Source: Fragilaria crotonensis (lineage: Eukaryota; Bacillariophyta; Fragilariophyceae; Fragilariales; Fragilariaceae). From it: DNA of 64,000 nucleotides. The position numbers and the translations under genes were made by a program. The DNA is taken from positions 39,513 through 103,512 of the forward strand of contig JAKSYS010000155.1 of the NCBI GenBank assembly GCA_022925895.1, written 5' to 3'. Each line of letters starts with the position of its first letter. The first letter of the stretch is position 1. The notes below the pieces were generated by a model. It searched no databases. It had not been told where the DNA came from and saw nothing but the letters and a program-made list of their open reading frames with translations. Of this stretch, positions 20,074 to 54,671 are shown piece by piece.

Positions 20074-21887
20074 TTAAGATCTAAAATTGGTTGGCGAAGG
20101 TGTGACATTGCTCTTCCTGATTGGCGATTTGGTTGGGGGAATTTGAGAAGTCAATGTGGCATCAAAAGCAAACTGCCCGCGGCCTCTCTTGCGAGTGGGA
20201 GCTTACGTGGGTCGTGCACTGGGGGCCCGAGTTGGCTGCCTAGTGGGGAATCCAGATGGGTTCTTAGTGGGGGCCCGAGTTGGCCGCTTCGTTGGGGCCC
20301 GAGGTGGTTGCGCGGTCGGCGACACTGATGGCTGTTTAGTGGGGGCCCGAGTTGGCCGCTTTGTCGGGGCCCGAGGTGGTTGCGCGGTCGGCGACACTGA
20401 TGGCTGTTTAGTGGGGGCCCGAGTTGGCCGCTTTGTCGGGACCCGAGTTGGTTGCGCGGTCGGCGACACTGTTGGCTGTTTCGTGGGGGCCCGAGTTGGC
20501 CGCTTTGTCGGGACCCGAGTTGGTTGCGCGGTCGGCGACACTGTTGGCTGTTTAGTGGGGGCCGGAGTTGGCCGCTTTGTCGGGGCCCGAGTTGGTTGCG
20601 CGGTCGGCGACACTGTTGGCTGTTTAGTGGGGGCCCGAGTTGGCCGCTTTGGCTGGTCCGTGGGAGTTGTCGTTGGGAAAGCAGTCGGTGTCGCAGTCGG
20701 GGAAGGTGTTGGCTCAGTGGTTAGCGTTGCAGTCGGGGCAGCTGTGGGCGATGCATTTGGCTCGTCAGTCGGGGAAGAAGTTGGAACACCAGTGGGCGAT
20801 GCGGTCGGGAAAACAGTTGGCTGGTTCGTGGGCGTTGTCGTTGGGAAAGCACTCGGTGTCGCAGTCGGGAAGCTGTTGGCTCAGTGGTTGGCGTTGCTGT
20901 CGGGGAAGCTGTCAGCGAGTCAGTCGGCGATGAGGTTGGGGAACTTGTCGGTGATGCAGTCGGGGAAGGTGTTGGATTACCAGTGGGCGATGCGGTCGGG
21001 GAAACAGTTGGCTGGTCCGTGGGAGTTGTCGTTGGGAAAGCAGTCGGTGTCGCAGTCGGGGAAGGTGTTGGCTCAATGGTTGGCGTTGCAGTCGAGGAAG
21101 CTGTGGGCGATGCAGTGGGTTGGTTTGTGGGCGACGCAGTTGGGGTTGCAGTTGGCGATGCAGTCGGAGAAGCAGTTGGCTGGTCCGTAGGCGTCGTCGT
21201 TGGGAAAGCAGTCGGTGTTGCAGTCGAGGAAGATGCAGTCGGGGAAGCTGTCAGCGAGTCAGTCGGCGATGAGGTTGGGGAACTTGTCGGTGATGCAGTC
21301 GGGGAAGTAGTTGGATTACCAGTGGGCGATGCGGTCGGGGAAACAGTTGGCTGGTCCGTGGGAGTTGTCGTTGGGAGAGCAGTCGGTGTTGCAGTCGGGG
21401 AAGATGTTGGCTCAGTGGTCGGCGTTGCAGTCGGGGAAGCTGTCGGCGAGTCGGTCGGCGACGCAGTTGGGGTTGCAGTTGGCTCGTCAGTCGGGGAAGA
21501 AGTTGGAACACCAGTGGGCGATGCGGTCGGAGAAACAGTTGGCTGGTCCGTAGGCGTCGTCATTGGGAAAGCAGTCGGTGTTGCAGTCAGGAAGGTGTTG
21601 GCTCAGTGGTCGGCTTTCGTTAAAGCCCTTTACTTCGTAGTTTTGCTCGCACTAGTTGCCAGCACGACACCAAGTAAATCACAAGTGGCACCGTTCGAGT
21701 ATACCTGGAGCACGTACGGATCAGTTGCAAAATTTACCGCCGTCAACAACGGATTGCACAACTCAATGGCTTTGTTGTTGCTTGTGCCCTCGATGTACTC
21801 GCTGATAACGAGCTCATTTGCGGCGGATGCGAATGTACATAGAGCGATCACAGATTAATAACTCACTGCCCAGGAATGATTCGTCAT
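20074..21887 (-). pseudogene. LTD/PT-repeat protein, locus A (decayed)
   Basis: The start (ATG 21887) reads MTNHSWAVSY, then TAA, then VIALCTFASAANELVISEY. Against the intact signal peptide of locus B, this is a nonsense codon inside the signal peptide. The LTD begins correctly (NELVISEYIEGTSNNKAIEL) but collapses after about 60 residues (DLLGVVLATSASKTTK); its second half is missing. A long Pro-Thr-repeat region follows (about 21590-20190) with several frame changes. Near the end, PT is followed by an in-frame TAA and then APTRKRGRGQFAFDATLTS down to the TAA at 20074. This basic C-terminus is shared with locus C (RKKGKRRFASDTTVTSQ). Two premature stops and a missing half-domain make this a pseudogene of the same secreted family. 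Confidence 0.82.
20329..20688 (-). repeat. 72-bp tandem repeat (24-residue PT unit), five copies
   Basis: Near-identical units recur with a period of exactly 72 bases (starts at 20329, 20401, 20473, 20545, 20617). On the minus strand each encodes a 24-residue unit of the type TKQPSVSPTAQPPRAPTKRP plus TRAP. Part of the PT tail of locus A. Confidence 0.85.
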
Positions 21888-23619: not shown

Positions 23620-26600
23620 TTAGGTACGGGATGCCATCATTCCTCGGCCTTTCATGCGCATGGCAGCTAACGTTGGTAGGGCAGTGGGGGCCCGTGTAGG
23701 CTGCTTCGTGGGGGCACGTGTTGGCTGCCTAGTGGGGCGTCGAGTTGGCTTCTTGGTGGGGCGTCGAGTTGGCTTCTTAGTGGGGCGTCGAGTGGGCTTC
23801 TTAGTGGGACGACGGGTTGGCAACTTCGTGGGGGCCCAAGTTGGTTCAGCTGTCGGCGAGCCTGCTGGCAGCCTAGTGGGAACCCGCGTTGGTTGAGAAG
23901 TCGGCGACCCAGTTGGTAGTGTTGTTGGTGGAGCTGTTGGTTGAAAGGTCGGCAAAGCTGTTGGCTGCATAGTAGGAGACCCGGTGGGATGGACAGTAGG
24001 CGAAGTCGTCGGGGAGGAAGTTGGAGATGCTGTTGGCAAAAAGTTGGAAACGAAGTTGGTTGGCCAGTTGGTGATGCTGTGGGAGAAGACGTGGGCGATG
24101 ACGTTGGAAAGGAGGTCGGCGATACTGTAGGAGAAACAGTTAGGGATGCAGTCGGCGATGCTGTTGGCGAAACAGTGGGGGATGCAGTCGGCGATCCTGT
24201 TGGCGAAACAGAAGGGAATGCAGTCGGCAATCCTGTTGGCGAAACAGTAGGGGATGCAGTCGTCGGGGAGGAAGTAGGAGATGCTGTTGGCAAAAAAGTT
24301 GGAAACGAAGTTGGTTGGCCAGTTGGTGATGCTGTGGGAGAAGACGTGGGCGATGACGTTGGAAAGGAGGTCGGCGATACTGTAGGAGAAACAGTTAGGG
24401 ATGCAGTCGGCGATCCTGTCGGCGAAACAGTAGGGGATGCAGTTGTCGAGGAGGAAGTTGGAGATGCTGTTGGCAGGAAAGATGGAAACGAAGTTGGTTG
24501 GCCAGTTGGTGATGCTGTTGGAGAAGACGTGGGCGATGGCGTTGGAAAGGAGGTCGGCGATACTGTAGGAGAAACAGTGGGGGATGCAGTCAGCGATCCT
24601 GCTGGCGAAACAGTAGGGGATGCAGTCGTCGGGGAGGAAGTTGGAGATGCTGTTGGCAAAACAGTTGGAAACGAAGTTGGTTGGCCAGTTGGTGATGCTG
24701 TGGGAGAAGACGTGGGCGAAGACGTTGGAAAGGAGGTCGGCGAACCTGTAGGCGAAGCAGTTGGGGATGCAGTCGGCGATCTCGTAGGCGAAACAGTAGG
24801 GGACGCAGTCGGCGATCCAGAAGGGGAAACAGTCGGGGATGCGGTCGGCGATCCTGTGGGCGACGCAGTTGGGAAAGCGGTCGGAGACTGTGTAGGCGAA
24901 GCAGTCGGAGACGCAGTGGGTTGGGCAGTGTTCGCAGCAGTGGGCGACGCGGTGGGGGATGCAGTCGGGGAAGCACTTGGAGAACACGTCGAACTCACAC
25001 CGACCACTGTCGGATCGTGATCAGAGTAACGGTAAGGTACACTTCCGTCAAAGTACGTCGGAAGCTTGCTGAAGTCAGGTTATAGTCAAGGGCGTCTGCC
25101 TCGTCAGCATTCACATGCCAAACGACACTCCCAATGACTCTCGAACTCAGGTTCGAGTTGGCAAAAATAGTCAAGCGTTCCCACTTTGTCGAACACGTAG
25201 CTGTACGCGTTGGGTCCTTCAAGTTCACGTAGCCAGCAGCTTGGTTGCTGTAATAGGCTCTTCGTTGGCGTAGGGTTCAAGTCACCGAGAATGCCGATGG
25301 CGCTGCAGGTTGCGTCCACAGACAGCCACTCCAGTCAACTTATTGGCGGCATTCACACGAACAGCGTTGCCTGTGATCAGGGTTTTAGAGGTCACAAGAA
25401 CATGTTGAAAACAAGAATTGCACGAGCGACTTTGCATCAACAACCGCATTCTCCTTACAATTACCGGATCCATCGTTGGCGTCAGGATCGTTACACGCTG
25501 ATCCCTTCGATTTGAAATGATTCACCGCAAGGGTGATGCGTGGATTGGACATCGCAAATGTTTGAGATGCTGTTGAAACTTTGCGCCAACGCGGGTCGGT
25601 TCATGGCGACGTTCCGTCAAAGTCGTTCACAAACGACGCTGCGTCAAGAACTCTCGCACTTCCTTCAATTTGACAGTATCCTGGTTGTAGATGAAGGCAG
25701 GCGCAATGGCATCGCCTCCTACGAGGCGGATCCCAGTCACGCAATTGTATCGATTGGATCCCGGCAGTATTCAACTTGTTGACGAGGTACGACGGCGTTG
25801 CCAGATTGACCCTCGCGGAAATCGTTCTCAATCTCCAAAGACCCAGAATCGGCGTTCAAACTCAAGATGCAGTCACCAGCTTCGCGGTCTGACGGTCAAC
25901 TCGGCAGTGTGTCCGCACCGCGAGAACAAGTCCAGTCAACGTCACTGCGTTTGTCGTCAGGGTTGTGAAGAAGTTGGGGACATTCGTCGAGACAATTTGG
26001 AGGCTGCCACCTACAGCCGGAGGGTCAAAGCGGGGATTGGCTTTAACAAACGAGTTGGAGCCGTCCTGCACACTCCTCACGCGCCAAGTGGCACCCGACG
26101 CAATGGCTCCTGCCCACTGGTAGCTCAACACCCCAGTGAGATTCGTTATCGTGTCCCCATTCGAACTGCGTTGGACAGTGCTGTAGATGGGACCAGAAAC
26201 CATCTAGAAGCCAATGTCCTGATTCTGAGTGTTGGGCCGTCGTCGTACGTAATGGTCTCCGCGCCCAACCTCTGCGAGGAAGGATGCGTAACCAACAACA
26301 CTGGGAGGATTGTCTGCGTGTGCGTGGAAGGACGCGGGCCCTGGACCAGCGATCTCGTTGAATCGATCCAACTGAAACTGCTCAGTAACTGTCAAGACTT
26401 GCGGGAAAACAACGCGCATGCCCTCGTATCGTTCCAAGTCTGCCTGCGCATATCCATTCTGACTGACACTCGTTGATGAGGCGGGAAGCACGATCTCAGC
26501 CGCCGTAGGAAGAGTATTGCCAGCTGAGACGACCGCAAAGAGACTGAATGGAGCCCAACTGAGTCTCGCCGAAGTTCTCAGCAACAGTCCCAACAACCTG

Positions 26601-29600
26601 CGACCTCGTCTCCGACATTTACTGCCGTCGTGGATGTTGTCCCTTGGAAAACGGATTCCCTCCGACGTCAACGGATTGGTGTCCGCCGATGTGTCCTTCT
26701 CTTGGACAAAGAATCCTTGAAGGCTCCTTCGGTATCGCGTCATTCGATTGGAAGTCGCCCACGACAATGCCTGGAATTGTCACGATGCTGCCGACGAGGG
26801 AGACGTGGCACCACTGCCTTGAATATCATGAATCAGCGTCTACACGAGGTGGCATCGATTCAAAGGAAAGGGATTGAAAGGTCACATGTTAGCATGGGAT
26901 AGTGCTGCGACACAAGAACAGAATGATGACGCGTACAACCCTAACTTACCACGACCCCACCAGTTGTTGGAGATGCAGTAGGTGCTTGCGTTGGAACGGG
27001 CGACTGGGGACCAGTAGGAGCTGAGGTGGACTGCGAACAGCCGGACGGGCAGCTCTTGAGTCCATCGAAGGTGTCCGCAACGAACTCGTCGTATTGGACC
27101 GTGCCATCGAAAGCATCGGTCGTGACAACATCTCTGATTCCGCAAGACTTCTTGCGAAAGGTTTTGTTAAGACCGAAATCAGCGTCAACACCGACCTGTC
27201 CGAATGAATCTACAACTGTGCCGGTACCACCTCCCTTCCTGAGAACGACCGCATCGTCCCCGTTAAAGGTCAAAGAACCAGAAGTCTGGTCTGCGTTCGA
27301 TAAGATCCCTGCAGCGGCAGCATTGTTGGCAATGACAAAGGATCCAAATGCTGGAACAGTCCCAACTAGAGCGATTGTATTAAGTGGGGTAGTGGCACCG
27401 TTGAAGTATATCTGAAGCACGTAGTTCTCAGTCGACAAGTTTACAGCGCTCGACGACGGATTGCACAACTCAATGGCTTTGTTGTTTGATGTACCCTCGA
27501 TGTACTCGCTGATGACCAAATCACTACCCGCAGGAGGCGACGCTGTTGGCGACGCAGTTGGGGAGGAAGTAGGGGACCCTGTTGGTGAAGCAGTAGGGGA
27601 TGTGGTCGGAGACTCCGTCAAAGAAGCAGTGGGCTGGTCAGTTGGTGATGCATTCGGGGAAGCAGTCAGAGACGCAGTGGGTTGGGCAGTGTTCGCAGCA
27701 GTGGGCGACGCGGTGGGGGATGCAGTCGGGGAAGCACTTGGAAGTACACGTCGAACTCACACCGACCACTGTCGGATCGTGATCAGAGTAACGGTAAGGT
27801 ACACTTCCGTCAAAGTACGTCGGAAGCTTGCTGAAGTCAAGGTTATAGTCAAGGGCGTCTGCCTCGTCAGCATTCACATGCCAAACGACACTCCCCGTGA
27901 CTCTCGAACTCAGGTTCGAGTTGGCCAAGAAATAGTCAAGCGTTCCCACTTTGGCATCGAACACGTAGCTGTACGCGTTGGGTCCTTCCAAGTTCACGTA
28001 GCCAGCAGCTTGGATTGCTGTAATAGGCTCTTCGTTGGCGTAGGAGTTCAAGTCACCGAGAATGCCGATGGCGCTGCAGGTTGCGTCCACAGACAGCCAC
28101 TCAGTCAACTTATTGGCGGCATTCACACGAACAGCGTTGCCTGTGATCAGGGGTTTTAGAGGTCACAAGAACATGTTAGAAAACAAGAATTGCACGAGCG
28201 ACTTTGCATCAACAACCGCGCATTCTCCTTACAATTACCGGATCCATCGTTGGCGTCAGGATCGTTACACGCTGATCCCTTCGATTTGAAATGATTCACC
28301 GCAAGGGTGATGCACGTGGATTGGACATCGCAAGTATTTGAGATGCTGTTGAAACTTTGCGCCAACGCGGGTCGATTCCTTGGCGACGTTCCGTCAAAGT
28401 CGTTCACAAACGACGCTGCGTCAAGAACTCTCGCACTTCCTTCCAATTTGACAGTTTCCTGGTTGTAGATGAAGGCAGGCGCAATGGCATCGCCTCCTAC
28501 GGAGGCGGATCCCGGTCGCACCCAATTGTATCGATTGGATCCCACGGCAGTATTCAACTTGTTGACGAGGTACGCCACGGCATTGCCAGATTGACCCTCG
28601 CGGAAATCGTTCTCAATCTCCAAAAGACCCAGAATGTCGGCGTTCAAACTCAAGATGCCAGTCACCAGCTTCGCGGTCTGACGGTCCAACTCGGCGAGTG
28701 TTCGCACCGCGAGAGCAAGTCCAGTCAACGTCACTGCGTTTGTCACGTCCAGGGTTGTGAAGAAGTTGAGGACATTCGTCGAGACAATTTTGAGGCTGCC
28801 ACCTACAGCCGGAGGGTCAAAGAGCGGGGATTGGCTTTAACAAACGAGTTGGAGCCGTCCTGCACTCCTCACGCGCCAAGTGGCACCCGACGCAATGGCT
28901 CCTGCCCACTGGTAGCTCAACACCCCAGTGAGATTCGTTATCGTGTCCCCATTCGAACTGCGTTGGACGTGCTGTAGATGGGACCGAAACCATCTAAGAA
29001 GCCAATGTCCTGATTCTGAGTGTTGAGCCCGTCGTCGTACGTAATGGTCCTCGCGCCAACCTCTGCGAGGAAGGATGCGTAACCAACAACACTGGGAGGA
29101 TTGGTCTGCGTGTACGTGGAAGGACGCGGGCCCTGGACCAGCTTGATCTCGTTGAATCGATCCAACTGAAACTGCTCAGTAACTGTCAAGACTTGCGGAA
29201 AACAACGCGCATGCCCTCGTATCGTTCCAAGTCTGCCTGCGCATATCCATTCTGACTGACACTCGTTGATGAGGCGGGAAGCACGATCTCAGCCGCCGTA
29301 GGAAGAGTATTGCCAACTGAGACGACCGCAACAGACTGAATGGAGCCCAACTGAGTCTCGCCGAAGTTCTCAACAACAGTCCCAACAACCTCGACCTCGT
29401 CTCCGACATTTACTGCCGTCGTGGATGTTGTCCTTGAAAACGAAGATTCCCTCCGACGTCAACGGATTGGTGTCCGCCGATGTGTCCTTCTCTTGGACAA
29501 AGAATCCTGAAGGCTCCTTCGGGTATCCGCGTCATTCGATTGGAAGTCGCCCACGACAATGCCTCGAATTGTCACGATGCTGCCGACGAGGGGAGACGTG

Positions 29601-32600
29601 GCACCACTGCCTTGAATATCATGAATCGGCGTCTACACGAGGTGGCATCGATTCAAAGGGGAAAGGGATTGCAAAGGTCACATGTTAGCATGGGATAGTG
29701 CTGCGACACAAGAACAGAATGATGACGCGTACAACCCTAACTTACCACGACCCCACCAGTTGTTGGAGATGCAGTAGGTGCTTGCGTTGGAACGGGCGAC
29801 TGGGGACCAGTAGGAGCTGAGGTGGACTGCGAACAGCCGGACGGGCAGCTCTTGAGTCCGTCGAAGGTGTCCACAACGAACTCGTCGTATTGGACCGTGC
29901 CATCGAAAGCATCGGTCGTGACAACATCTCTGATTCCGCAAGACTTCTTGCGAAAGGTTTTGTTAAGACCGAAATCAGCGTCAACACCGACCTGTCCGAA
30001 TGAATCTACAACTGTGCCGGTACCACCTCCCCTTCCTGAGAACGACCGCATCGTCCCCGTTAAAGGTCAAAGAACCAGAAGTCTGGTCTGCGTTCGATAA
30101 GATCCCCGCAGCGGCAGCAGTGTTGGCAATGACAAAGGATCCGAATGCTGGAACAGTCCCAACTAGAGCGATTGTATTAAGTGGGGTAGTGGCACCGTTG
30201 AAGTATATCTGAAGCACGTAGTTCTCAGTCGACAAGTTTACAGCGCTCGACGACGGATTGCACAACTCAATGGCTTTGTTGTTTGATGTACCCTCGATGT
30301 ACTCGCTGATGACCAAATCACTACCCGCAGGAGGCGACGCTGTTGGCGACGCAGTTGGGGAGGAAGTAGGGGACCCTGTTGGTGAAGCAGTAGGGGATGT
30401 GGTCGGAGACTCCGTCGGAGAAGCAGTGGGCTGATCCGCGGGTGATGCATTCGGGGAAGCAGTCAGAGTCGCAGTGGGTTGGGCAGTGTTCGCAGCAGTG
30501 GGCGACGCGGTGGGGGATGCAGTCGGGGAAGCACTTGGAGTACACGTCGAACTCACACCGACCACTGTCGGATCGTGATCAGAGTAACGGTAAGGTACAC
30601 TTCCGTCAAAGTACGTCGGAAGCTTGCTGAAGTCAAGGTTATAGTCAAGGGCGTCTGCCTCGTCAGCATTCACATGCCAAACGACACTCCCCGTGACTCT
30701 CGAACTCAGGTTCGAGTTGGCCAAGAAATAGTCAAGCGTTCCCACTTTGGCATCGAACACGTAGCTGTACGCGTTGGGTCCTTCCAAGTTCACGTAGCCA
30801 GCAGCTTGGATTGCTGTAATAGGCTCTTCGTTGGCGTAGGAGTTCAAGTCACCGAGAATGCCGATGGCGCTGCAGGTTGCGTCCACAGACAGCCACTCAG
30901 TCAACTTATTGGCGGCATTCACACGAACAGCGTTGCCTGTGATCAGGGGGTTTTAGAGGTCACAAGAACATGTTAGAAAACAAGAATTGCACGAGCGACT
31001 TTGCATCAACAACCGCGCATTCTCCTTACAATTACCGGATCCATCGTTGGCGTCAGGATCGTTACACGCTGATCCCTTCGATTTGAAATGATTCACCGCA
31101 AGGGTGATGCACGTGGATTGGACATCGCAAGTGTTTGAGATGCTGTTGAAACTTTGCGCCAACGCGGGTCGATTCCTTGGCGACGTTCCGTCAAAGTCGT
31201 TCACAAACGACGCTGCGTCAAGAACTCTCGCACTTCCTTCCAATTTGACAGTTTCCTGGTTGTAGATGAAGGCAGGCGCAATGGCATCGCCTCCTACGGA
31301 GGCGGATCCCGGTCGCACCCAATTGTATCGATTGGATCCCACGGCAGTATTCAACTTGTCGACGAGGTACAACACGGCATTGCCAGATTGACCCTCGCGG
31401 AAATCGTTCTCAATCTCCAAAAGACCCAGAATGTCGGCGTTCAAACTCAAGATGCCAGTCACCAGCTTCGCGGTCTGACGGTCCAACTCGGCTTGAGTGT
31501 TCGCACCGCGGGGGAGCAAGTCCAGTCAACGTCACTGCGTTTGTCACGTCCAGGGTTGTGAAGAAGTTGAGGACATTCGTCGAGACAATTTTGAGGCTGC
31601 CACCTACAGCCGGAGGGGTCAAAGAGCGGGGATTGGCTTTAACAAACGAGTTGGAGCCGTCCTGCACACTCCTCACGCGCCAAGTGGCACCCGACGCAAT
31701 GGCTCCTGCCCACTGGTAGCTCAACACCCCAGTGAGATTCGTTATCGTGTCCCCCATTCGAACTGCGTTGGACGTGCTGTAGATGGGACCGAAACCATCT
31801 AAGAAGCCAATGTCCTGATTCTGAGTGTTGAGCCCGTCGTCGTACGTAATGGTCCTCGCGCCAACCTCTGCGAGGAAGGATGCGTAACCAACAACACTGG
31901 GAGGATTGGTCTGCGTGTACGTGGAAGGACGCGGGCCCTGGACCAGCTTGATCTCGTTGAATCGATCCAACTGAAACTGCTCAGTAACTGTCAAGACTTG
32001 CGGGAAAACAACGCGCATGCCCTCGTATCGTTCCAAGTCTGCCTGCGCATATCCATTCTGACTGACACTCGTTGACGAGGCGGGAAGCACGATCTCAGCC
32101 GCCGTAGGAAGAGTATTACCAACTGAGACGACCGCAAGAGACTGAATGGAGCCCAACTGAGTCTCGCCGAAGTTCTCAACAACAGTCCCAACAACCTCGA
32201 CCTCGTCTCCGACATTTACTGCCGTCGTGGATGTTGTCCCTTGGAAAACGAAGATTCCCTCCGACGTCAACGGATTGGTGTCCGCCGATGTGTCCTTCTC
32301 TTGGACAAAGAATCCTTGAAGGCTCCTTCGGGTATCCGCGTCATTCGATTGGAAGTCGCCCACGACAATGCCTCGAATTGTCACGATGCTGCCGACGAGG
32401 GGAGACGTGGCACCACTGCCTTGAATATCATGAATCGGCGTCTACACGAGGTGGCATCGATTCAAAGGGGAAAGGGATTGCAAAGGTCACATGTTAGCAT
32501 GGGATAGTGCTGCGACACAAGAACAGAATGATGACGCGTACAACCCTAACTTACCACGACCCCACCAGTTGTTGGAGATGCAGTAGGTGCTTGCGTTGGA

Positions 32601-35600
32601 ACGGGCGACTGGGGACCAGTAGGAGCCGAGGTGGACTGCGAACAGCCGGACGGGCAGCTCTTGAGTCCGTCGAAGGTGTCCACAACGAACTCGTCGTATT
32701 GGACCGTGCCATCGAAAGCATCGGTCGTGACAACATCTCTGATTCCGCAAGACTTCTTGCGAAAGGTTTTGTTAAGACCGAAATCAGCGTCAACACCGAC
32801 CTGTCCGAATGAATCTACAACTGTGCCGGTACCACCTCCCTTCCTGAGAACGACCGCATCGTCCCATTAAAGGTCAAGAACCAGAAGTCTGGTCTGCGTT
32901 CGATAAGATCCCCGCAGCGGCAGCAGTGTTGGCAATGACAAAGGATCCAAATGCTGGAACAGTCCCAACTAGAGCGATTGTATTAAGTGGGGTAGTGGCA
33001 CCGTTGAAGTATAGCTGGAGCACGTAGTTCTCAGTCGACAAGTTTACAGCGCTCGACGACGGATTGCACAACTCAATGGCTTTGTTGTTTGATGTACCCT
33101 CGATGTACTCGCTGATGACCAAATCACTACCCGCAGGAGGCGACGCTGTTGGCGACGCAGTTGGGGAGGAAGTAGGGGACCCTGTTGGTGAAGCAGTAGG
33201 GGATGCGGTCGGAGACTCCGTCGGAGAAGCAGTGGGCTGATCCGCGGGTGATGCATTCGGGGAAGCAGTCAGAGTCGCAGTGGGTTGGGCAGTGTTCGCA
33301 GCAGTGGGCGACGCGGTGGGGGATGCAGTCGGGGAAGCACTTGGAGTACGTCGAACTCACACCGACCACTGTCGGATCGTGATCAGAGTAACGGTAAGGT
33401 ACACTTCCGTCAAAGTACGTCGGAAGCTTGCTGAAGTCAAGGTTATAGTCAGGGCGTCTGCCTCGTCAGCATTCACATGCCAAACGACACTCCCGTGACT
33501 CTCGAACTCAGGTTCGAGTTGGCCAAGAAATAGTCAAGCGTTCCCACTTTGGCATCGAACACGTAGCTGTACGCGTTGGGTCCTTCCAAGTTCACGTAGC
33601 CAGCAGCTTGGATTGCTGTAATAGGCTCTTCGTTGGCGTAGGAGTTCAAGTCACCGAGAATGCCGATGGCGCTGCAGGTTGCGTCCACAGACAGCCACTC
33701 AGTCAACTTATTGGCGGCATTCACACGAACAGCGTTGCCTGTGATCAGGGGTTTTAGAGGTCACAAGAACATGTTAGAAAACAAGAATTGCACGAGCGAC
33801 TTTGCATCAACAACCGCGCATTCTCCTTACAATTACCGGATCCATCGTTGGCGTCAGGATCGTTACACGCTGATCCCTTCGATTTGAAATGATTCACCGC
33901 AAGGGTGATGCACGTGGATTGGACATCGCAAGTGTTTGAGATGCTGTTGAAACTTTGCGCCAACGCGGGTCGATTCCTTGGCGACGTTCCGTCAAAGTCG
34001 TTCACAAACGACGCTGCGTCAAGAACTCTCGCACTTCCTTCCAATTTGACAGTTTCCTGGTTGTAGATGAAGGCAGGCGTGGCATCGCCTCCTACGGAGG
34101 CGGATCCCGTCGCACCCAATTGTATCGATTGGATCCCACGGCAGTATTCAACTTGTTGACGAGGTACGCCACGGCATTGCCAGATTGACCCTCGCGGAAA
34201 TCGTTCTCAATCTCCAAAGACCCAGAATGTCGGCGTTCAAACTCAAGATGCCAGTCACCAGCTTCGCGGTCTGACGGTCCAACTCGGCTTGAGTGTTCGC
34301 ACCGCGGGAGCAAGTCCAGTCAACGTCACTGCGTTTGTCACGTCCAGGGTTGTGAAGAAGTTGAGGACATTCGTCGAGACAATTTTGAGGCTGCCACCTA
34401 CAGCCGGAGGGTCAAAGAGCGGGGATTGGCTTTAACAAACGAGTTGGAGCCGTCCTGCACACTCCTCACGCGCCAAGTGGCACCCGACGCAATGGCTCCT
34501 GCCCACTGGTAGCTCAACACCCCAGTGAGATTCGTTATCGTGTCCCCCATTCGAACTGCGTTGGACGTGTTGTAGATGGGACCGAAACCATCTAAGAAGC
34601 CAATGTCCTGATTCTGAGTGTTGAGCCCGTCGTCGTACGTAATGGTCCTCGCGCCAACCTCTGCGAGGAAGGATGCGTAACCAACAACACTGGGAGGATT
34701 GGTCTGCGTGTACGAGGAAGGACGCGGGCCCTGGACCAGCTTGATCTCGTTGAATCGATCCAACTGAAACTGCTCAGTAACTGTCAAGACTTGCGGGAAA
34801 ACAACGCGCATGCCCTCGTATCGTTCCAAGTCTGCCTGCGCATATCCATTCTGACTGACACTCGTTGACGAGGCGGGAAGCACGATCTCAGCCGCCGTAG
34901 GAAGAGTATTGCCAACTGAGACGACCGCAACAGACTGAATGGCGCCCAACTGAGTCTCGCCGAAGTTCTCAACAACAGTCCCAACAACCTCGACCTCGTC
35001 TCCGACATTTACTGCCGTCGTGGATGTTGTCCCTTGGAAAACGAAGATTCCCTCCGACGTCAACGGATTGGTGTCCGCCGATGTGTCCTTCTCTTGGACA
35101 AAGAATCCTTGAAGGCTCCTTCGGGTATCCGCGTCATTCGATTGGAAGTCGCCCACGACAATGCCTCGAATTGTCACGATGCTGCCGACGAGGGGAGACG
35201 TGGCACCACTGCCTTGAATATCATGAATCGGCGTCTACAGGAGGTGGCATCGATCCAAAGGGGAAAGGGATTGCAAAGGTCAAATGTTAGCATGGGATAG
35301 TGCTGCGACACAAGAACAGAATGATGACGCGTACAACCCTAACTTACCACGACCCCACCAGTTGTTGGAGATGCAGTAGGTGCTTGCGTTGGAACGGGCG
35401 ACTGGGGACCAGTAGGAGCTGAGGTGGACTGCGAACAGCCGGACGGGCAGCTCTTGAGTCCGTCGAAGGTGTCCACAACGAACTCGTCGTATTGGACCGT
35501 GCCATCGAAAGCATCGGTCGTGACAACATCTCTGATTCCGCAAGACTTCTTGCGAAAGGTTTTGTTAAGACCGAAATCAGCGTCAACACCGACCTGTCCG

Positions 35601-36913
35601 AATGAATCTACAACTGTGCCGGTACCACCTCCCTTCCTGAGTACGACCGCATCGTCCCCATTAAAGGTCAAAGAACCAGAAGTCTGGTCTGCCTTCGATA
35701 AGATCCCCGCAGCGGCAGCAGTGTTGGCAATGACAAAGGATCCAAATGCTGGAACAGTCCCAACTAGAGCGATTGTATTAAGTGGGGTAGTGGCACCGTT
35801 GAAGTATATCTGGAGCACGTAGTTCTCAGTCGACAAGTTTACAGCGCTCGACGACGGATTGCACAACTCAATGGCTTTGTTGTTTGATGTACCCTCGATG
35901 TACTCGCTGATGACCAAATCACTACCCGCAGGAGGCGACGCTGTTGGCGACGCAGTTGGGGATGAAGTAGGGGACCCTGTTGGTATAGCAGTAGGGGATG
36001 TGGTCGGAGACTCCGTCGGAGAAGCAGTGGGCTGGTCAGTTGGTGAGGAAGTCGGGGAGGCAGTGGGCTGGTCTGCAGGCGATGCAGTCGGGGAGGCAGT
36101 GGGCTGGTCAGTTGATGAGGAAGTCGGGGAAGCAGTGGGCTGATCTGTAGGCGATGCAGTCGGGGAGGCAGTGGGCTGGTCAGGTTGGTCAGTGGGCTGA
36201 TCTGTGGGTGAGGATGTTGGGGAAGCAGTGGGCTGTTCAGTAGGCGATGCAGTTGGGGAGGCAGTAGGCTGGTCAGCGGGCGATGCCGTTGTGGAAGCAG
36301 TGGGTTGGTCTGTAGGCGAGGATGTTGGGGAGAAAGTGGGCGAGTTGGTTGGCAAGCAGTCGGACGGGCAGGTTTTGAGACCGTTTATGGTGTCCGAAAC
36401 GAACTCGTCGTATTGGACCGTTCCATCGAAAGCGTCGGTCGTGACAACATCTCTGATTCCGCAAGACTTCTTGCGAAAGGTTTTGTTAAGACCGAAATCA
36501 GCGTCAACACCGACCTGTCCGAATGAATCTACAACTGTGCCGGTACCACCTCCCTTCCTGAGAACGACCGCATCGTCCCCATTAAAGGTCAAAGAACCAG
36601 AAGTCTGGTCTGCGTTCGATAAGATCCCTGCAGCGGCAGCATTGTTGGCAATGACAAAGGATCCAAATGCTGGAACAGTCCCAACTAGAGCGATTGTATT
36701 AAGTGGTGTAGTGGCACCGTTGAAGTATATCTGAAGCAGGTAGCCATCAGTCGACAAGTTTACAGCGCTCGACGACGGATTGCACAACTCAATGGCTTTG
36801 TTGTTTGATGAACCCTCAATGTACTCGCTGATAACGAGCTCGTTTGCGGCGGATGCAAATGTACTGAGAGTGATCAAGGATAGATAAATCACTGCCCAGA
36901 CGTGTTTCGTCAT
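23620..36913 (-). CDS. Giant secreted LTD/OB/EEP nuclease with four tandem units, locus B
   Basis: ATG at 36913 opens a clear signal peptide (MTKHVWAVIYLSLITLSTFA, cleavage after ASA), followed by LTD1 and a PT linker. A 2.8-kb unit of LTD, OB-fold, EEP nuclease and PT linker is then repeated four times, and a long PT tail ends at TAA 23620. Exons read downward: 36913-35348, 35234-33831, 33738-32555, 32441-31030, 30936-29746, 29632-28233, 28140-26950, 26839-25459, 25370-23620. All eight introns are GT-AG and sit at the same two sites in every unit (phase 0 after the LTD, phase 1 inside EEP); the LTD introns carry TGCTAAC. The exons sum to 12,480 nt, about 4,150 residues. One open frame (30922-29981) runs from EEP through the PT linker into the next LTD, so units are fused, not separate genes. 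Single-base indels break the frame in every unit. Confidence 0.75.
23667..24984 (-). repeat. Long Pro-Thr repeat tail of locus B
   Basis: Over 1.3 kb encoding PT-repeat residues (ASPTVSPTGSPTAS type, later KKPTRRPTKKPTRRP). Higher-order blocks of about 185-255 bp recur (near 24043, 24297, 24484, 24668). One frame change sits near 24040, where an A-run has five instead of six bases. The last residues are basic (RMKGRGMMASRT) before TAA 23620. Confidence 0.8.
24985..27525 (-). other. Nuclease unit 1 (last in protein order), heavily indel-laden
   Basis: LTD 27525-26950 is open and intact. Intron 26949-26840 (110 bp). From 26839 to 25010 the OB/EEP part carries many scattered one- or two-base losses relative to units 2-4, for example GACCAGCGATCTCG against GACCAGCTTGATCTCG near 26350 and CTTTGTCGAACAC against CTTTGGCATCGAACAC near 25190. 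Substitutions are few. Intron 25458-25371 (88 bp) is still recognisable. The SDHDPTVVGVSSTC end is open again (25020-24985) and enters the PT tail. As written it could not be translated. It may be uncorrected sequence rather than true decay. Confidence 0.75.
27526..30322 (-). other. Nuclease unit 2
   Basis: LTD from 30322 (broken by an extra C near 30029); intron 29745-29633 (113 bp); OB-fold with deletions near 29432 and 29203, and a two-base loss near 28865. The EEP start has the three-G version of the run near 28812. The EEP body is open (28746-28156): ADILGLLEIENDFREG, AVNHFKSKGSAC. Intron 28232-28141 (92 bp). GILGDLNSY and YRYSDHDPTVVG follow; an extra A near 27740 shifts the PT linker. 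Same architecture and motifs as unit 3. Confidence 0.8.
30323..33128 (-). other. Nuclease unit 3
   Basis: LTD from 33128; intron 32554-32442 (113 bp). The OB-fold and the start of EEP are open together (32384-31410), including PPAVGGSLKIVSTNVLNFF, the first EEP strand with its Asn. The frame breaks where the G-run near 31508 is one base too long. It then continues with DILGLLEIENDFREG, LAVNHFKSKGSAC, intron 31029-30937 (93 bp), GILGDLNSY and YRYSDHDPTVVG. All four catalytic motifs are present. The EEP-PT-LTD junction into unit 2 is uninterrupted until an extra C near 30029. This is the most intact unit. Metal-dependent phosphodiesterase activity on DNA or RNA is expected from the family. Confidence 0.83.
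33129..35923 (-). other. Nuclease unit 4 (first in protein order)
   Basis: LTD 35923-35430. Intron 35347-35235 (113 bp, phase 0). OB-fold: IHDIQGSGATSPLVGS, GIVVGDFQSND, SEGIFVFQG, VGDEVEVVGTVVENFGETQL. The frame shifts at the G-run near 34400 (GGG; unit 3 has GGGG and reads through). EEP: EIENDFREG, NHFKSKGSAC. Intron 33830-33739 (92 bp, phase 1) rejoins GNC to NAVRVNAANKLTEWL, then ILGDLNSYANEEPI. Further one- or two-base deletions (near 33352, 33450 and 33494, and two in the LTD that follows, 32860-32875) break the end. Order and motifs match bacterial ExeM/NucH extracellular endonucleases: LEIEND (metal Glu), NHFKSKGS, GDLNSY and SDHDP. Confidence 0.8.
35924..36344 (-). repeat. First Pro-Thr linker of locus B
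   Basis: Encodes repeating [16 protein letters not shown] residues between LTD1 and the second LTD, in frame. Such linkers are usually heavily O-glycosylated and extended; that is inferred from composition. Confidence 0.82.
36345..36913 (-). other. Signal peptide and first lamin-tail domain of locus B
   Basis: Signal peptide, then LTD: ELVISEYIEGSSNNKAIEL, VPAFGSFVIAN, FNGDDAVVLRKGG, VVDSFGQVG, CGIRDVVTTDAFDG, ending at KTCPSDC. LTD is an Ig-like fold found in lamins and in secreted bacterial nucleases and phosphatases. The two late Cys (KSCG and CPSDC type) could form a disulfide in the secretory pathway. No single-base break is seen in this domain. Confidence 0.88.
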
Positions 36914-39900
36914 GGTTTTGTGATGAATTGTTGTCCTTGTGCAATCAGGGAATCTATGCCTGTAGGAGAAACCGCAACGCAGATTGTTAAAAACATTTTG
37001 GAGAGTTGCTCGGGGCCTCGCATTATCATCCGTCACATACCTTGGGTCCCTTTGGGTCAAATGCCGAAGTGAGCTGGATATGCTTTTGTCGTAGCGTGAA
37101 ACGCTTTTACTCTGCCTTCCGCGTGAACACTTTGTGAAAGATTGGTTTTAGAAAAACTTGAAGTCCGAGCGTCCTTGATCAGTGCTGAGAAGTTCCTTCG
37201 AAGGAATCGCAAGCTGCTGCCGAGCACATGAATGGTTTTGCGCGTATGATAGAGCAGACTATATAAGCGTGGCAAGGATACCTTGTGGACAGAAGGATCA
37301 TCATACTGAATCTTATCGCTGCCCTTTGAATCTTTCTTGATGATCGAACGATGTTTCATTGGATCTACCAATGAATCTCAACGTATCCCCGCCGTGATAG
37401 AGAGTATGTTAAGACAATAAATTTCTCCGAATAGTTGTCATAATGATGTGGAGTCTCAATGGAAAGTGAATCTTCCAGGACCATCTCACCTATTCCCGCT
37501 GCTAAGTGGTGCATGAAGTGAATCTCCGGTTAACATCTCACCACTCACCCGTATTACGCCCCTCTCCAGCCTATGCTTTGTGTAGGTATCAAGTTTAGCG
37601 TCGGTTGACTCGATGTCCATTGCTTTTCCTTGACTTTGTCATGGAATGGTCGATAGATACAGTGTTGCATGTAGAACTTGACAGTGTGAATTTGTCAAAC
37701 CACGGGTTGATGTCTCAAGGACATTCGTTTTGCATTTATTTGTTAACGAATCTATTGGTGAGAAATTTGAATCTCTTCCATGCTTCTTGGAATGCTGTGT
37801 AGAAAAATAATTCACACACACATGCAAGAAGACAGAAAATCCCTCTATGAAAATGGCATATGAGAGGCGTACAGTATGATACCTGTCGGAGGTGCACCCA
37901 AGTCGTGGAATCACTTTGAATCTCTTGCCCCAGTGCTGTCATCAGACAAGGCACAGCGATCTCTTTCTGCTCCCCGACACAATTTGCCCGTATCATTGTC
38001 CCAATGCAGTCATTTTCTGGCAATGGTGTCTGAGAGCATGGGAGGGTGAGAGGGATACAGTAGCTAACGGTACTGTAATCACTCTACTAGCAACGATATT
38101 GTGTACAACACGGAACAAATAGCGTTCATCAGAGCCTCACAGGTTATGACCTCACTGTGACATAATGTCTACTACAACGTACTGTACTACTACTAGTAGG
38201 TGTAGTACTCGGAATACACTGCACAATGCACACTGTACAGTACCGCTTATTGAGGCGTACGCTGAACGGCTACAATACTACAACGTTATTTCATAACGTC
38301 TTGAAGGTAATCTTGCTTACTCAGATTCCCATCCAGCACGCCAGTCACACCCCAACAACGTTTTGAGAGACAAAAATCTTCAACACGCTTCCAGCGAAGA
38401 GGACGATTTGCAAACCTTCTTCTGACGAAGAAGACATGCGAAGAAGGTTTAGTGACACACACAAGAAAATATTCTACGTTGGTTCAGTGTACAACATGTA
38501 CCAGACCAGACTTTTATGTGAACACCTTCTTCGATGACTCAAGTGAAAACGACATCCAACGACGAAGGTTTCTTCCGAAGAAAGATTTGGAAGCAGGTTC
38601 TTCGGGCGAAGAAGGTCCTTTCAACATTCTTCGTTCGCAGGAGAAGGTTTCGGAAACGCGCAAGCCAAGCTCACGAGCGCAGTCTGACATTTTCGATATG
38701 CTCAAAAATATTTTGCCGTTATCCATCATTGGTTTAAAAACAGTCAACGGCAAAAGACGGTTATTATTTCCGTCCTGAGAAGAATTTCCGCATGTCCCAG
38801 GTATCGTAATGAAGACGAAAAAATGAATTCTTTCCAGGGGACCTTTGCCTTCCCCACCACTCTTGTGGAGAAATACAGTGTCATGCTGGTGAGTGCCGAT
38901 GATGAAGTTTCTGATGGAACATGTTCCCAATGAACCAATGAACAGCCGCGAAACAGGTTGCATTCATTGACAGAGGCGATTCTGATCTTGCGTCACAACA
39001 ACAACAACAAGAACAACAACAACAACGACAGCGCATTGCCATTTCCGTGCACCAATCGTTTGTCAGGATGACGATAAACCGCTCGCGCGCGCATCCTTTC
39101 GAGACCACCCTTAGCAAACATGGAATGAAGTCGTCCATATTTTAGTTCGGTTCCTTTGTGATCGTCCTCAATGTCATGACTGCAACCATCCAAACATGAA
39201 ATCAAGGAGAATTATCATTTAGTTGATGAAAAGGATTGCAAAGTGGCAAGACTTTTGAATGGTGCGTTGGAAGAATAAGGCCTGAAAAATGGCTTGGGCG
39301 GTCGCCGAGAGAAATCAGAGCAGTGCTGTCGTAACGTACTATTCTGAGTGGTCCTGTGTTGAAGTTTCAAGCGCAGCAGTTCCTTGGATTCCTCTTGTTA
39401 CGTGATGTTCAACTCTTTCACCGCAGGGGCAGAACTTGCCGAACCGCATCAGAGCCGCACGACTCCTCGTCGAGTGCAGGATTGGATCGTCATTACTGAT
39501 ATTCCAATGAATGGTTTTCACTCCCACCTAGTCGCTGCAGTGCTGCTACTTCGTGGTAATTGCTGAGAATCTTACGACAGGCACAGTATTCAACGCGCTT
39601 TGCATTGCGTCTGGGCTCCACGGTGGTGGCATCACATGAAAAAAATGCGTCTCAAGAAACGTCCGAACCATTCTTGGAGAAGGATGCGCACAACATTCAA
39701 TTCGGGTGATTCTCGATCCATGTAGGCCTTTGCGATGTACATCCGACTCTTACTCTTTAGATTTCCTGAAAATGCCGTTGATGTCACTGATCTGCATTTT
39801 AGCCTGTGTCGTCGACAATAGCAATTTGTAAGCCAATCCACCTTGAATTGCACTCATATCACAATTTAACACATCCTCAACTCACTCCCCTGCCAACATG

Positions 39901-39952: not shown

Positions 39953-41526
39953 CTACGATTGGGTGGGGAAAGGTGTCTTGTTGCGCTTCATGACTGGGGA
40001 ATTGCTTGGGCGAGATTGGGATGTGACCGTGGTATCGGACGCAAACCGCCTTTTACCTTTTTTCCTGCGGGCTCGATTCGACGTGGGTTGGGCAGTGGGC
40101 GCCCTTGTAGGCTGCGTCGTAGGGGACCGACTTGGTTGTTTGGTGGGCAGTCGAGTTGGATGAGCTGTAGGCGAAGCTGTGGGCGAAGCCGTTGGCTGAG
40201 CTGTGGGCGAAGCCGTTGGCTGTGTCCCGCAGCCGGACGGGCAGCTTTTGAGACCATCGAAGGTGTCCACAACGAACTCGTCGTACTGGACGGTGCTATC
40301 GAAAACATCGGTCGTGACAACATCTCTGATTCCGCAAGACTTCTTGCGGTAAGTCTTGTCGGTACCGAAATCAGCGTCAACACCGACCTGTCCGAATGAA
40401 TCTACAACTGTGCCGTCTGCACCTCCTTTCCTTAGAACGACCGCATCATTCCCATTGAAGGCGAGAGAATCCGACGTCTGGTCTGCGTTCGATAAGATCC
40501 CCGCAGCGGCAGCATTGTTGGCAATGACAAAGGATCCTCCTGCTGGAACAGTCCCAGTGAGAGCGATTGTATAAAGTGGGGTAATGGCACCGTTGAAGTA
40601 TATCTGAAGCAGGTAGCCATCAGTCAACAAGTCGACAGTGCTCGACGACGGATTGCACAATTCAATGACTTTGTTGTTTGATGTACCCTCGATGTACTCG
40701 CTGATGGCCAAATCACTACCTGCTGCGGGGGGCGACGCAGTTGGCGAAGCAGTGGGCTGCTCAATGGGCACAGCAGTCGAAGACGTCGTGGGTTAGGCAG
40801 TGAGGGCACATATTAGCATGAAATAGGGCAGCAGCGACGCAAGAAAAGTATGATACTGCATTATCAATACTTACCACAACCCCACCAGTTGTAGGAGATT
40901 CCGTAGGTGCTGGCGTTGGAACGGGCGCCTGGGCACCAGTAGGAGCTGAGGTGGACTGCGAACAGCCCGATGGGCAGCTTCTGAGACCGTCGAAGGTGTC
41001 CACAACGAACTCGTCGTACTGGACCGTGCGGTCGAACACATCGGTCGTGACAACATCTCTGATTCCGCAAGACTTCTTGCGATAGGTTTTGTTGGTCCCA
41101 AAATCAACCGCAACTCCGACCTGGCCATACGAATCTACAACCGTTCCGCTCGTACCTCCCTTTCTGAGAACGACCGCATCATCACCATTGAAGGCGAGAG
41201 AATCCGACGTCTGGTCTGCGTTCGATGAGATCCCCGCAGCGGCAGCATTGTTGGCAATGACAAAGGATCCTCCTGCTGGAACAGTCCCAGTGAGAGCGAT
41301 TGTATAAAGTGGGGTAATGGCACTGTTGAAGAATATCTGAAGCACGTAGTTCTCAGTTCTCAGTCGACAAGTCGACATCGCTCGACGACGGATTGCACAA
41401 CTCAATGGCTTTGTTGTTAGATGTACCCTCGATGTACTCGCTGATAACCAGCTCGTTTGCTGCCGATACAAATGTACAGGGAGTGATCGCGCATAAATAG
41501 AGCACTGCCCAGACATGCTTCGTCAT
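39953..41526 (-). CDS. Secreted two-LTD protein without nuclease, locus C
   Basis: ATG 41526 gives a signal peptide (MTKHVWAVLYLCAITPCTFV, cleavage near VSA) and LTD1. Exon 1 is 41526-40875; intron 40874-40757 (118 bp, GT-AG, TGCTAAT branch-like); exon 2 is 40756-39953. The donor (after GGVV) is the same phase-0 site used before the OB-fold in locus B. Here the acceptor leads straight to [15 protein letters not shown] and a second LTD (LAISEYIEG to CPSGCG). A PT tail and basic C-terminus follow (ARRKKGKRRFASDTTVTSQS). The OB and EEP domains are absent. A seven-base duplication (CTGAGAA twice) near 41350-41370 shifts the frame inside LTD1; without it the gene would be open. Either a recent pseudogene or a sequence error. 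Confidence 0.8.
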
Positions 41527-43150: not shown

Positions 43151-46100
43151 TTACTCATCGATAACGATGACACCATCCTTCAGGTTCGGCACAAAGCCGT
43201 AAACCAAGCCTGCATCAAAGTCGATTGCTGCCCGGTGTGTCTTGAACGCTTTGACAAGTCGTTCAATAAGAGGAAGCATGAGTTTAATTGTGTCATCTCC
43301 CCTGTTTTGACTCTCGTATAATGCTGAATAATTCGCACAGATGTATGCTCGTGCTTGCCTTGAAAGTTTGCGGACTGTCTCAGTTGTGAGGACTTCCCTG
43401 CTTGTCACATCACTTGCTAACCTTTTGAAAGCGTCCTTGCTTTTCTTAGAGTTCAGGGGCTTTTGTCTGTAGATCCCCGCCTTTGCAATACCCCATCTGT
43501 ATTGTACTCCTTCCCCCGCCAATTCGGCATGAAACTTTGGTGTGATGATGACTGAAACGCCAAGTCAACTGCCAACATGCGGCAAAGCAGTCAATTCTTC
43601 GGCAAAATCAAGAAAACTGGCCATAAGGCACTTTAAGCTCCAGTCCTCCGCACCTTCCAATACTTCACCATGATTGCCATCGGTTGCAACATCCACAGTA
43701 TACTTGTCGAGCTGTGCCTCATCAATCCAACCTCTTTCCCAAAGAACTTGTAAGAGACCTTTTGGCCGACCCTCCCAACCTTTCTTTTCTCTTATTCTCA
43801 CCACTCTTGTTCTATTTCCTTGTTTCTTGCATGTTCTTGCAATTCTACAAGGCGATAATTTCATCGATCATTCGGAATGCCGAATGGTGTAGTAAGCTCT
43901 GGCTTCAGTTCTGAAATTGTTTTGTTTCGCATTCGAGCAGGACCAGGAGGAGAAGGAAGGATTCGGTCATGATGGTTAAGATGCTCTCTTTCTTCTTGAT
44001 CCATCCAAAATGGCCCATCATTGGTTGATAGAAAAGTGAAACTCTGAGTCCTCGCCAACTTCTAAGGTACGTGAATGCATCCCAAGATACCCGTCATGTT
44101 GTTTCATAATTGACTCACGCACGCATGTTCGACTGTGCTTCACCGTAGCTCTTGTTCATACTGTGTGCATCTAATCTGTTGGAAAGTTTCTTAGCTTGCC
44201 CTTGCAAATGATTGAAAAGGAATGCAAAATCAAAGTGTGGATAGACAACCTTGAGACAATCAACACAATCTTTGAATTGAATTGACATATGATTGTATGT
44301 CCAGTATCCTTTGTTGTTTGTTCCAAGCTCAAAGTAGATAACAAAAGGTGAGTCTTTCACGTCTTTCCGTCTTTCTTCATTTCTTGTCCATGAATTGCGA
44401 TTGCTGCATCCGCATTGACGTAATTCTTGTTGCGACGTGTCTCGTTTATCTCACTGATTTGAATCCTGCTTAGTTTTAGGCCAAACCCCGTCTCAGGTGA
44501 TTGGAATGCTGACAACATTAATCCCATCCCTTCTGTCTTTGGAAGAAGTGCTCGCTGTCCCTCGTGTCCTACCCACTGGCGGTTGCCAATCAAGTACTGA
44601 TTGAAGACACTTTCATCCTGACCAAAAATCATAAGTGGTTTTGATGGCGATGATTCAGACTTCCTCACACTCAAGTTCCCTCCCATCACACCATACCCCA
44701 TGTCCTTTGCAACATCGTGAAAAAAGTCGTGATCATTGACATGAAATTCAATCATCTGGATGCCGTCGTCCGAAAGGTAAGAGTATCCTTTGCATTGGCA
44801 TTCAAATTCAATGGCAGTCGCTCATGTTTCCATCGTTCTTCAGTTTCCTTTGTCACTTGGATCCATCAATGGCATCTCGGTTCAAGCTTTAATAGGTAGC
44901 AGTCCTTGCAGAAATGGTTCATGTGGAAGACAACGTTTTGTCGTTCGTGGCCGTCAACAAAGAATGTTTTCTTTCGAGAGTCCTACGCGAATCCAAGTCG
45001 ACGCAGCCAACGCCACGTTGTAGATAAGGAAATTGGCGACTCTATGTAAACACCCAGTAGACAGTCGGCTTTAATTCTTTGTAATCTGTGTTTATTGTTG
45101 CCATTTGTCTCCTCGCCATTGTTGACGTCTTCATCGCCACAATCATGTTGTCCCTGAATTGTGTCTCGCTCTCCACTCACGATGTTATTGTTTGCTGCTT
45201 CAAACGCTGCTGGAATAATCTTCAACACGAGCTCGTTTCTTGCGAACGCAATTGTGAGATCAGCAAGGTTCTCAATGCAGTATTGGTGCCACGGAATGGT
45301 AATCTCGTCTTGGAAGTATTCCAATAAATTCGGGAAGAGGTTTCCGCTCCTTGTGAATGTTTGGGTTCGGATGCGGAAAACGCTCACGATTTGCCCTCAA
45401 TAGTATATTCCAACCTGCAACAGTCCGTTCATTTGTGCCAGCAGCTTCAATCCCCATCTTGCTGCTATCAAAGATTGCTTGTGTGCAACAATCTTCAACC
45501 CATCATGCCGAATTCATCTCCTCCAGTGCCATCGTGTAGGCCAAGCAAAGAATTGACGATCTCTGTCTAATTATGAAGATGTCATAAGCAGAACAGAGGT
45601 TGTCTTTATCATGCTTATCTACAAGGTCTCTCCATCCATCAACTGACCGATTGACTTGTTGAAGCCGCTCAATCCTCTGTTGAAGGACTTCGACAACGTT
45701 TTGATTGTCACTTACACTTCCAAGAAAGAGCTTTTTGGCTTCCGGGCTGTCCCAATACGTCTGTTCAACAATCATAGATGATGCAGTACCGTGTTGAAGC
45801 TTCTTAGCTTTATCTTCTGCTTCAAGTTGCGCTTGAGCTTTTCGTTTGATAGTTGATTGCTGAGAAATTTGCGTCGTCAAATCCACAATTTCGGGCATGC
45901 CACGTGCAATGCTGTATCGATCATTAATGCTCTCATCTTGTAGCAAAGACAAGAAATTTGTCTTTCCATCTGGCGGACGCTCTACCAAACCTCCTGGTGT
46001 TGTTATGTAGTAACCCCAAATGTTTCGTTTTTGATTGCTGAATGGACAGAGACCCCTTGCTTGACGTTGAAATAGGCCAGTTGTGTTCGATACAGTAAAG

Positions 46101-46297
46101 TCATCAAGAATTACTATACCGCCACCTTTCGAAATTGCTCGATTCATGGCACCTCTATCAAACCCAAGGGACTCAAGAGAAGGAAACTGAGCCTTAATGG
46201 CTCTATGAAAGGTTTCATCAGAGAGCCATTTGTCTCGGTATCGACTCTGCTTGGTGACTTCAAGCCAGCACTGGTAGAACATTTGTAGCTGCTTCAT
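43151..46297 (-). pseudogene. IS630/mariner-like DDE transposase relic
   Basis: At least seven frame-broken pieces read in order down from 46297: a coiled N-terminal region (to 45503), a Lys/Arg-rich linker (FPHPNPNIHKERKP), WRWLRRLGFA, the catalytic part, and a C-terminal RNase-H-like end. The first acidic residue is present (IFGQDESVFNQYLIGNRQW). The second motif reads FLFNHLQGQAKK where the relative at 62880 has FLFDHSQGHA, so Asp has become Asn. The third is HAELAGEGVQYRWGIAKA with its Glu. LQVLWERGWIDEAQLDKY is another shared block. The order D, D, E with WxxAK after the last Glu resembles IS630/Tc1-mariner enzymes. No terminal repeats found. Dead by frameshifts and by the lost Asp. Confidence 0.78.
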
Positions 46298-48973: not shown

Positions 48974-49121
48974 GCATGTGATTCGTTACTTATGAATGGA
49001 AAAGGTATGCTAACTTAGCCGGAATTATCTGGAATGATATTAGTATGCTTTTATACTTCTTTGTTATTCAAATGAATCCGAAAACCACGCAATTTGTTTC
49101 CGGGTTCTGTGCGTTCAAAAG

Positions 49122-54608: not shown

Positions 54609-54671
54609 TCTTGCTCAACACAGAATAGCTTCGTCCCTCGTCATCAAGCTGGGACAGCATGTTCTCCGCAA

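Follow-up and report, generated by a model that had tools for sequence, protein, structure and literature searches.

The closest described system is ExeM of Shewanella oneidensis, a sugar-unspecific endonuclease that requires Ca2+ and Mg2+/Mn2+ (PMC6085458). All three of its domains, a lamin-tail domain (LTD), an OB-fold and an EEP nuclease domain, are needed for full activity, and a form lacking the LTD keeps some of it (PMC6085458). ExeM and the diatom locus described here have the same domain order, the catalytic residues and a signal peptide in common; they differ in that ExeM is a single unit with a C-terminal membrane anchor (PMC6085458), whereas the locus carries four fused units, introns, PT linkers and a PT tail. 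Fused repeats of catalytic domains exist in other single-celled algae, since a dinoflagellate luciferase has three tandem catalytic domains (PMC5029497) and the diatom iota carbonic anhydrase LCIP63 a repeated domain (PMC6776030), both being unrelated, non-nuclease proteins. Among the matches listed, titles and abstract openings of the diatom literature describe no fused multi-core nuclease, and those on PT-rich diatom adhesion proteins held nothing relevant. We analysed a window of 64,000 nucleotides from Fragilaria crotonensis (assembly GCA_022925895.1, contig JAKSYS010000155.1, positions 39,513 to 103,512 of the forward strand), in which a preliminary description had placed a gene with four ExeM/NucH-type units.

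Layout of the array and family membership

A gene-like stretch on the minus strand begins with the ATG at position 36913 and ends with the stop codon at position 23620. From the ATG onwards it comprises a signal peptide, a lamin-tail domain (LTD0), PT linker 0, four 2.8-kb units and a PT tail, and if open throughout and spliced it would encode an estimated 4,175 residues or so. The fourfold repeat of the preliminary description, with LTD starts at 35923, 33128, 30322 and 27525, was recovered with units of 2.79–2.81 kb each. By tblastn there are five lamin-tail domains, LTD0 and one per unit; the earlier count of one LTD per unit is therefore correct for the units, but had missed the LTD0 that precedes them. 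The features are as follows.

36845..36913, minus: ATG and signal peptide MTKHVWAVIYLSLITLSTFASAA, called by eye from the frame and a hydropathy peak of 2.1
36410..36844, minus: LTD0, the fifth LTD, not followed by a nuclease core (tblastn)
35924..36409, minus: end of the LTD0 stretch and PT linker 0 (Pfam PT repeat)
33129..35923, minus: unit 1, with LTD exon 35348-35923, intron 1 35235-35347, exon 2 (OB and EEP-N) 33831-35234, intron 2 33739-33830, EEP-C and PT linker from 33738
30323..33128, minus: unit 2, with LTD exon 32555-33128, intron 1 32442-32554, exon 2 31030-32441, intron 2 30937-31029, EEP-C and PT linker from 30936
29984..30952, minus: open frame of 323 aa over the unit 2/unit 3 boundary (EEP-C, PT linker, LTD)
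27526..30322, minus: unit 3, with LTD exon 29746-30322, intron 1 29633-29745, exon 2 28233-29632, intron 2 28141-28232, EEP-C and PT linker from 28140
24976..27525, minus: unit 4, with LTD exon 26950-27525 (no indels), intron 1 26840-26949, exon 2 25459-26839, intron 2 25371-25458, EEP-C from 25370; core heavily broken
23620..24975, minus: long PT tail with basic (K/R)PT repeats at its end, stop at 23620

The signal peptide beginning at ATG 36913 is the only one and stands at the start alone, as previously described. A 602-aa frame containing LTD0 and LTD1 matches Pfam LTD at 6e-29, and tandem repeats lie at 36015-36341, within the PT linker 0 region. Each unit begins with its LTD and ends with its PT linker; in between, intron 1 precedes the OB-fold and the N-terminal half of the nuclease, and intron 2 separates these from the C-terminal half. 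With gaps excluded, pairwise DNA identity is 99.1–99.4% among units 1–3 and 96.2–96.5% between these and unit 4. The claim that introns occupy two identical sites in every unit was borne out in all four: intron 1 (GTAAGT...TAG) measures 113, 113, 113 and 110 nt in units 1–4 and intron 2 (GTAAGG...CAG) 92, 93, 92 and 88 nt, and splicing at the GTAAG donors restores family-like junctions. A 62-nt version of intron 2 was dropped, as the 92-nt form with the GTAAGG donor restores the family junction. The open frame said to cross a unit boundary is that at 29984-30952, which passes from the unit 2 nuclease (NF033681 columns 413-544) through the PT linker into the unit 3 LTD (Pfam LTD, 2.3e-11). One internal frame change interrupts the PT tail (frames 23620-25020 and 23670-25079). 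PT-rich secreted proteins are typical of diatoms.

The domain search that the preliminary description had proposed gave 524.8 bits for the joined unit against NF033681 (ExeM_NucH_DNase; NCBIfam cut-off 300 bits), over columns 1-544 of 546. Four separate, unjoined frames scored 142–200 bits each, below the cut-off, and jointly covered the same columns 1-544 of 546, so that kinship with ExeM/NucH holds for the pieces as well as for the whole. The joined unit also matches Pfam LTD and, narrowly, Exo_endo_phos (24.7 against a cut-off of 24.5). The order of LTD, OB-fold and EEP behind a signal peptide is that of the family, the OB-fold label being taken from the family and the ExeM paper, with no separate OB match behind it. 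Solved structures 9sf8/9sf9 were matched at E 0.002 (3e-37 with a profile) and 6mnt weakly (0.018), while another structure search matched none. Against the ExeM-GG exonuclease model (NF033680) the score was 327 bits where 1300 are required, and the C-terminus is the PT tail with no Gly-Gly anchor. The LTD is not required for membership of the ExeM/NucH family, since the diatom LTD query matched only 20 of 88 fetched prokaryote loci, some of which are incomplete.

Residues E342, H451, N502, D590 and H591 are invariant in all nine rows of an alignment of the window's unit with seven plasmid-borne relatives and one phage-record relative, and the DNA of the four catalytic motifs is identical in all four units. 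In ExeM, E521 and D822 bind metal, and H642, N699 and H823 possibly bind phosphate (PMC6085458). Judged by motif, the diatom residues match the ExeM set of E, H, N, D and H in type; their motifs also align with a Shewanella protein, which is a 944-aa relative and not ExeM itself. Thus the domains, unit count, signal peptide and family of the proposed string of about four secreted nucleases all stand, but every unit is frameshifted as assembled and none offers a continuous open frame. Family membership is that of a domain, not yet of a proven product.

Bacterial relatives and the history of the array

Among the best 80 of 589 confirmed prokaryote relatives, the nearest is a protein of the alphaproteobacterium Falsiroseomonas bella with 56% identity over core residues 3-599 (locus L009). 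Its core is alike; it differs in having one core, in a 1,430-aa frame, and tblastn with the diatom LTD found no LTD in this locus. In a tree built from the diatom unit and 88 loci (89 rows, the window being the only eukaryote in the sample), the diatom core falls among Pseudomonadota in an 11-row group (SH-aLRT 91), enclosed by a 14-row group (SH-aLRT 95) that includes one cyanobacterial and one Bacteroidota row. The nuclease was likely acquired from bacteria by transfer.

Two cores in the same orientation were found in two of the 88 loci (L068 and L083, both Anaerolineaceae), as adjacent separate genes in both cases, the second core gene of L083 being cut off at the contig end; such pairs are a possible first step to fusion. 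In a further locus (L063), the second match is weak (24%) and lies on the opposite strand. Matches above the family cut-off occurred in 57 of 398 Pseudomonadota genomes and 36 of 301 Chloroflexota genomes. Inspected by eye, with at most three candidates scored per Pseudomonadota genome, the matches in these two phyla held no frame with two full cores: close core pairs were two genes of one genome (G004) or pieces of single genes (such as G294 and G070), and in two further cases below the cut-off (G593, G489) one frame carried the OB part twice and the nuclease part once. A cyanobacterial MAG protein (L010:4846-8286) apparently has two LTDs before one ExeM/NucH core, seen by eye with one LTD matched. 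Two scans of viral contigs yielded no relative. Matches were present in four of 50,697 phage records, all under 60% identity, and we infer that these are bacterial or prophage genes.

Three LTD-PT paralogues of the main gene lie in the window.

39956-41526, minus: paralogue a, with signal peptide, LTD, intron-1 remnant in a PT linker, second LTD, PT and basic C-terminus
49044-51698, plus: paralogue b, with a partial LTD, a full LTD and more than 500 residues of PT repeats
20154-21887, minus: paralogue c, with a stop in the signal peptide, an LTD cut to about 48 residues, long PT and several frame changes

No nuclease core was found by tblastn in any of the three. The 5′ flank of the main gene aligns with that of paralogue c over 553 bases at 74.5% and with that of paralogue a over 311 bases at 76.2%; among the matches listed, the flank of paralogue b gave none. 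In paralogue a the donor of intron 1 is retained with some 71 bases of that intron, followed by the PT linker and the second LTD. This remnant is likely a deletion scar, and it makes it probable that paralogue a, or a copy from which it derives, used to have a core. The family does therefore decay, paralogue a having apparently lost its core and paralogue c carrying a stop in its signal peptide.

Within the array, five of six clean two-versus-two substitution sites separate units 1 and 2 from units 3 and 4 (columns 110, 263, 1057, 2668 and 2698). Column 2737 disagrees with this split, and column 1624 agrees with it in a poorly aligned run; of the two-versus-two indel columns, 1380 and 1641 agree and 1713 does not. 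The substitution split favours real copies. Unequal exchange between PT-coding repeats may have enlarged the array, units 1 and 2 and units 3 and 4 being the more closely related pairs. In view of the scar in paralogue a, the PT-coding repeats look like the places where units come and go.

Other repeated sequences were seen in the window. The frames at 43154-43564 (minus) and 63245-63892 (plus) are alike by eye (HAELAGEGV... type), as are those at 45506-46306 (minus) and 60954-62144 (plus; QQRI..LQ... type), and these two look-alike pairs, which flank the cluster, are perhaps an unnamed transposable element. Many broken frames on the minus strand at 53078-59213, with a match to the copia-type reverse transcriptase RVT_2 at 53611-54171, are probably a retroelement.

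State of the reading frames and competing explanations

Frame-breaking indels were counted against unit 1 for the LTD and unit 2 for the rest, giving 7, 3, 10 and 32 in units 1–4; the count for unit 2 is too low by this choice of reference, although unit 2 is probably the least broken. Of the three junctions between units, only 2-3 can be read through without any correction; 1-2 and 3-4 are each interrupted by one indel, at a common Thr-Cys-Thr-Pro site. The frame stays open from unit 4 into the PT tail. Runs of identical bases make up 44% of the bases and contain 21 of the 25 indels of units 1–3, so that consensus error is likely there; in unit 4 they contain 21 of 37. At a first C run, where the family frame needs four bases, unit 1 has three and unit 2 five, and units 3 and 4 read CTC. 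At a second, units 1, 3 and 4 carry three bases and unit 2 alone the four that the frame needs; this shared three-base form may be a real frameshift passed on by descent, or the run may have been misread systematically.

The indels of unit 4 start abruptly within intron 1. There are none in LTD4 (0 in 577 columns), and beyond it the density is about 18–32 per kb, as high in introns as in exons, a pattern that fits a poor-consensus stretch and is also compatible with loss of constraint. Private codon changes in the unit 4 core number 22 nonsynonymous and four synonymous, plus two stops, where random change would be 75.5% nonsynonymous, and they look like those of unconstrained sequence. The pooled cores of units 1–3 have six nonsynonymous and two synonymous private changes, too few to judge selection. 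The LTDs are evolving under constraint, with dN/dS about 0.16–0.47 (LTD0 versus LTD1 about 0.31). Private indels stand to substitutions as 13 to 16 in units 1–3 and as 25 to 38 in exon 2 of unit 4; an indel share of this size is far above that of neutral decay and typical of noisy reads.

Elsewhere in the window, five conserved frames of 325–531 aa (FkbM, O-FucT, DDE_1, glutathione-reductase-like and AlgH-like) are open. Other frames are broken at 2019-4573 and 5115-8563, so that breaks extend beyond the repeat. The latter stretch, on the plus strand, matches the AAA_16 ATPase and is split into three frames, which may reflect an intron or a consensus error. The AlgH-like protein is preceded by a SHAFVVP motif resembling a plastid-import signal. 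With the PT-rich secreted proteins and the copia-type reverse transcriptase, this motif points to a likely diatom origin of the DNA.

Taken together, these observations most likely reflect a real, recently expanded multi-nuclease gene. On balance we lean towards a nuclear gene whose secreted product, some 4,200 residues long, comprises a signal peptide, LTD0, four ExeM/NucH-type units, PT linkers and a basic PT tail. Its nuclease would have come from bacteria, and its frameshifts would mostly be errors in the consensus, noisy long reads having been impossible to polish in such a repeat. The main competitor, which we hold to be distinctly less probable though far from negligible, is that the array is a decaying pseudogene, or that selection acts only on the LTD-PT parts and the cores are relics. 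Frame-breaking indels in all four units, some of them in forms common to three, would be expected under such decay, as would the random-looking changes of the unit 4 core next to a clean LTD4, the three paralogues with LTD-PT in which tblastn found no core, and the fusion of some 71 nt of intron 1 into the PT linker of paralogue a. However, the indel-to-substitution ratios given above are far richer in indels than those of neutral decay, splice sites and catalytic motifs are kept in all four units, and the near identity of units 1–3 leaves little time in which to decay.

That the copy number of four is itself a product of assembly, one or two real units having been inflated by misassembly or merged haplotypes, we regard as improbable. 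The very high identity of units 1–3 combined with an indel-rich consensus is the usual setting of repeat errors; yet the unit-specific substitutions, those of the linkers included, mostly divide units 1 and 2 from units 3 and 4, the two ends of the array are unique (LTD0 with linker 0, and the PT tail), and the flanks are not duplicated. An arrangement of four tandem genes, each transcribed and secreted separately as in some bacteria, has its precedent in the two Anaerolineaceae loci with two adjacent separate ExeM/NucH genes. It was rejected, and is given very little weight, because there are no stops or signal peptides between units: the PT-coding sequence leads directly into the following LTD, with neither a stop nor anything resembling a signal peptide in between, exactly so at one junction and apart from one indel each at the remaining two.

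Phosphate and the possible use of the array

Two transcripts of Asterionellopsis thurstonii, known here by their table names alone, bear on the use of such a gene, one of them being named for EddB, which we take to be an ExeM-like nuclease. Under phosphate starvation, 'Extracellular nuclease, putative' rose by 5.89 log2 in strain FE355 and 'DNA degradation protein EddB' by 6.20 log2 in strain A4, both within the ten most induced annotated genes (PMC9959416). The FE355 list also holds an SPX-domain gene and glycerophosphodiesterases, and the A4 list an alkaline phosphatase (PMC9959416). The species is, like F. crotonensis, a diatom, and the available text of that paper makes no mention of fusion (PMC9959416). 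On this evidence single nucleases of the extracellular type would be nothing new for diatoms, and what may be novel is their fusion into an array. Of the uses first put forward for the protein, namely harvest of phosphate or nitrogen from extracellular DNA or cutting of DNA in biofilms, the induction of these nuclease-named transcripts by phosphate starvation favours the first, and phosphate scavenging is our best guess, held with moderate confidence.

A P1BS-like site (GNATATNC / GCATATCC) lies at 37076-37083 on the minus strand, 170 bases 5′ of the main gene's ATG, and is absent at the aligned place in the flanks of paralogues a and c. The window contains 11 such sites against 7.9 expected, a number that 15 of 100 shuffles reach, and four of the 11 are one coding site repeated in the four units. 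The site before the ATG is thus a weak, post hoc hint.

Each unit would be expected to cleave extracellular DNA or RNA, using divalent metal ions. The LTD would aid activity or placement and the linkers would keep the units apart, and the chain might be held in cell wall or mucilage by its basic PT tail. Such a protein would most likely serve to release phosphate from extracellular DNA near the cell. A fuller proposal, which we advance only tentatively, is that of a secreted 'nuclease cable', in which one polypeptide of some 4,200 residues, with four active ExeM-type nucleases and five LTDs, is tethered at the algal surface by its basic PT tail, and unit number shifts by exchange between PT repeats, such that strains tune their phosphate uptake from DNA. 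If true, it would be, to our knowledge, the first fused multi-core extracellular nuclease.

Extracellular DNA is described as central to the cycling of phosphorus in the sea (PMC6085458), and among the matches listed little on its use by algae was found in the literature searched. If the frameshifts are real, the locus would be a clear record of array decay. A multi-core nuclease of bacterial type would bring together, within a single gene, transfer from bacteria, the growth of a protein through repeats and the scavenging of nutrients, and would offer a natural design for multivalent nucleases.
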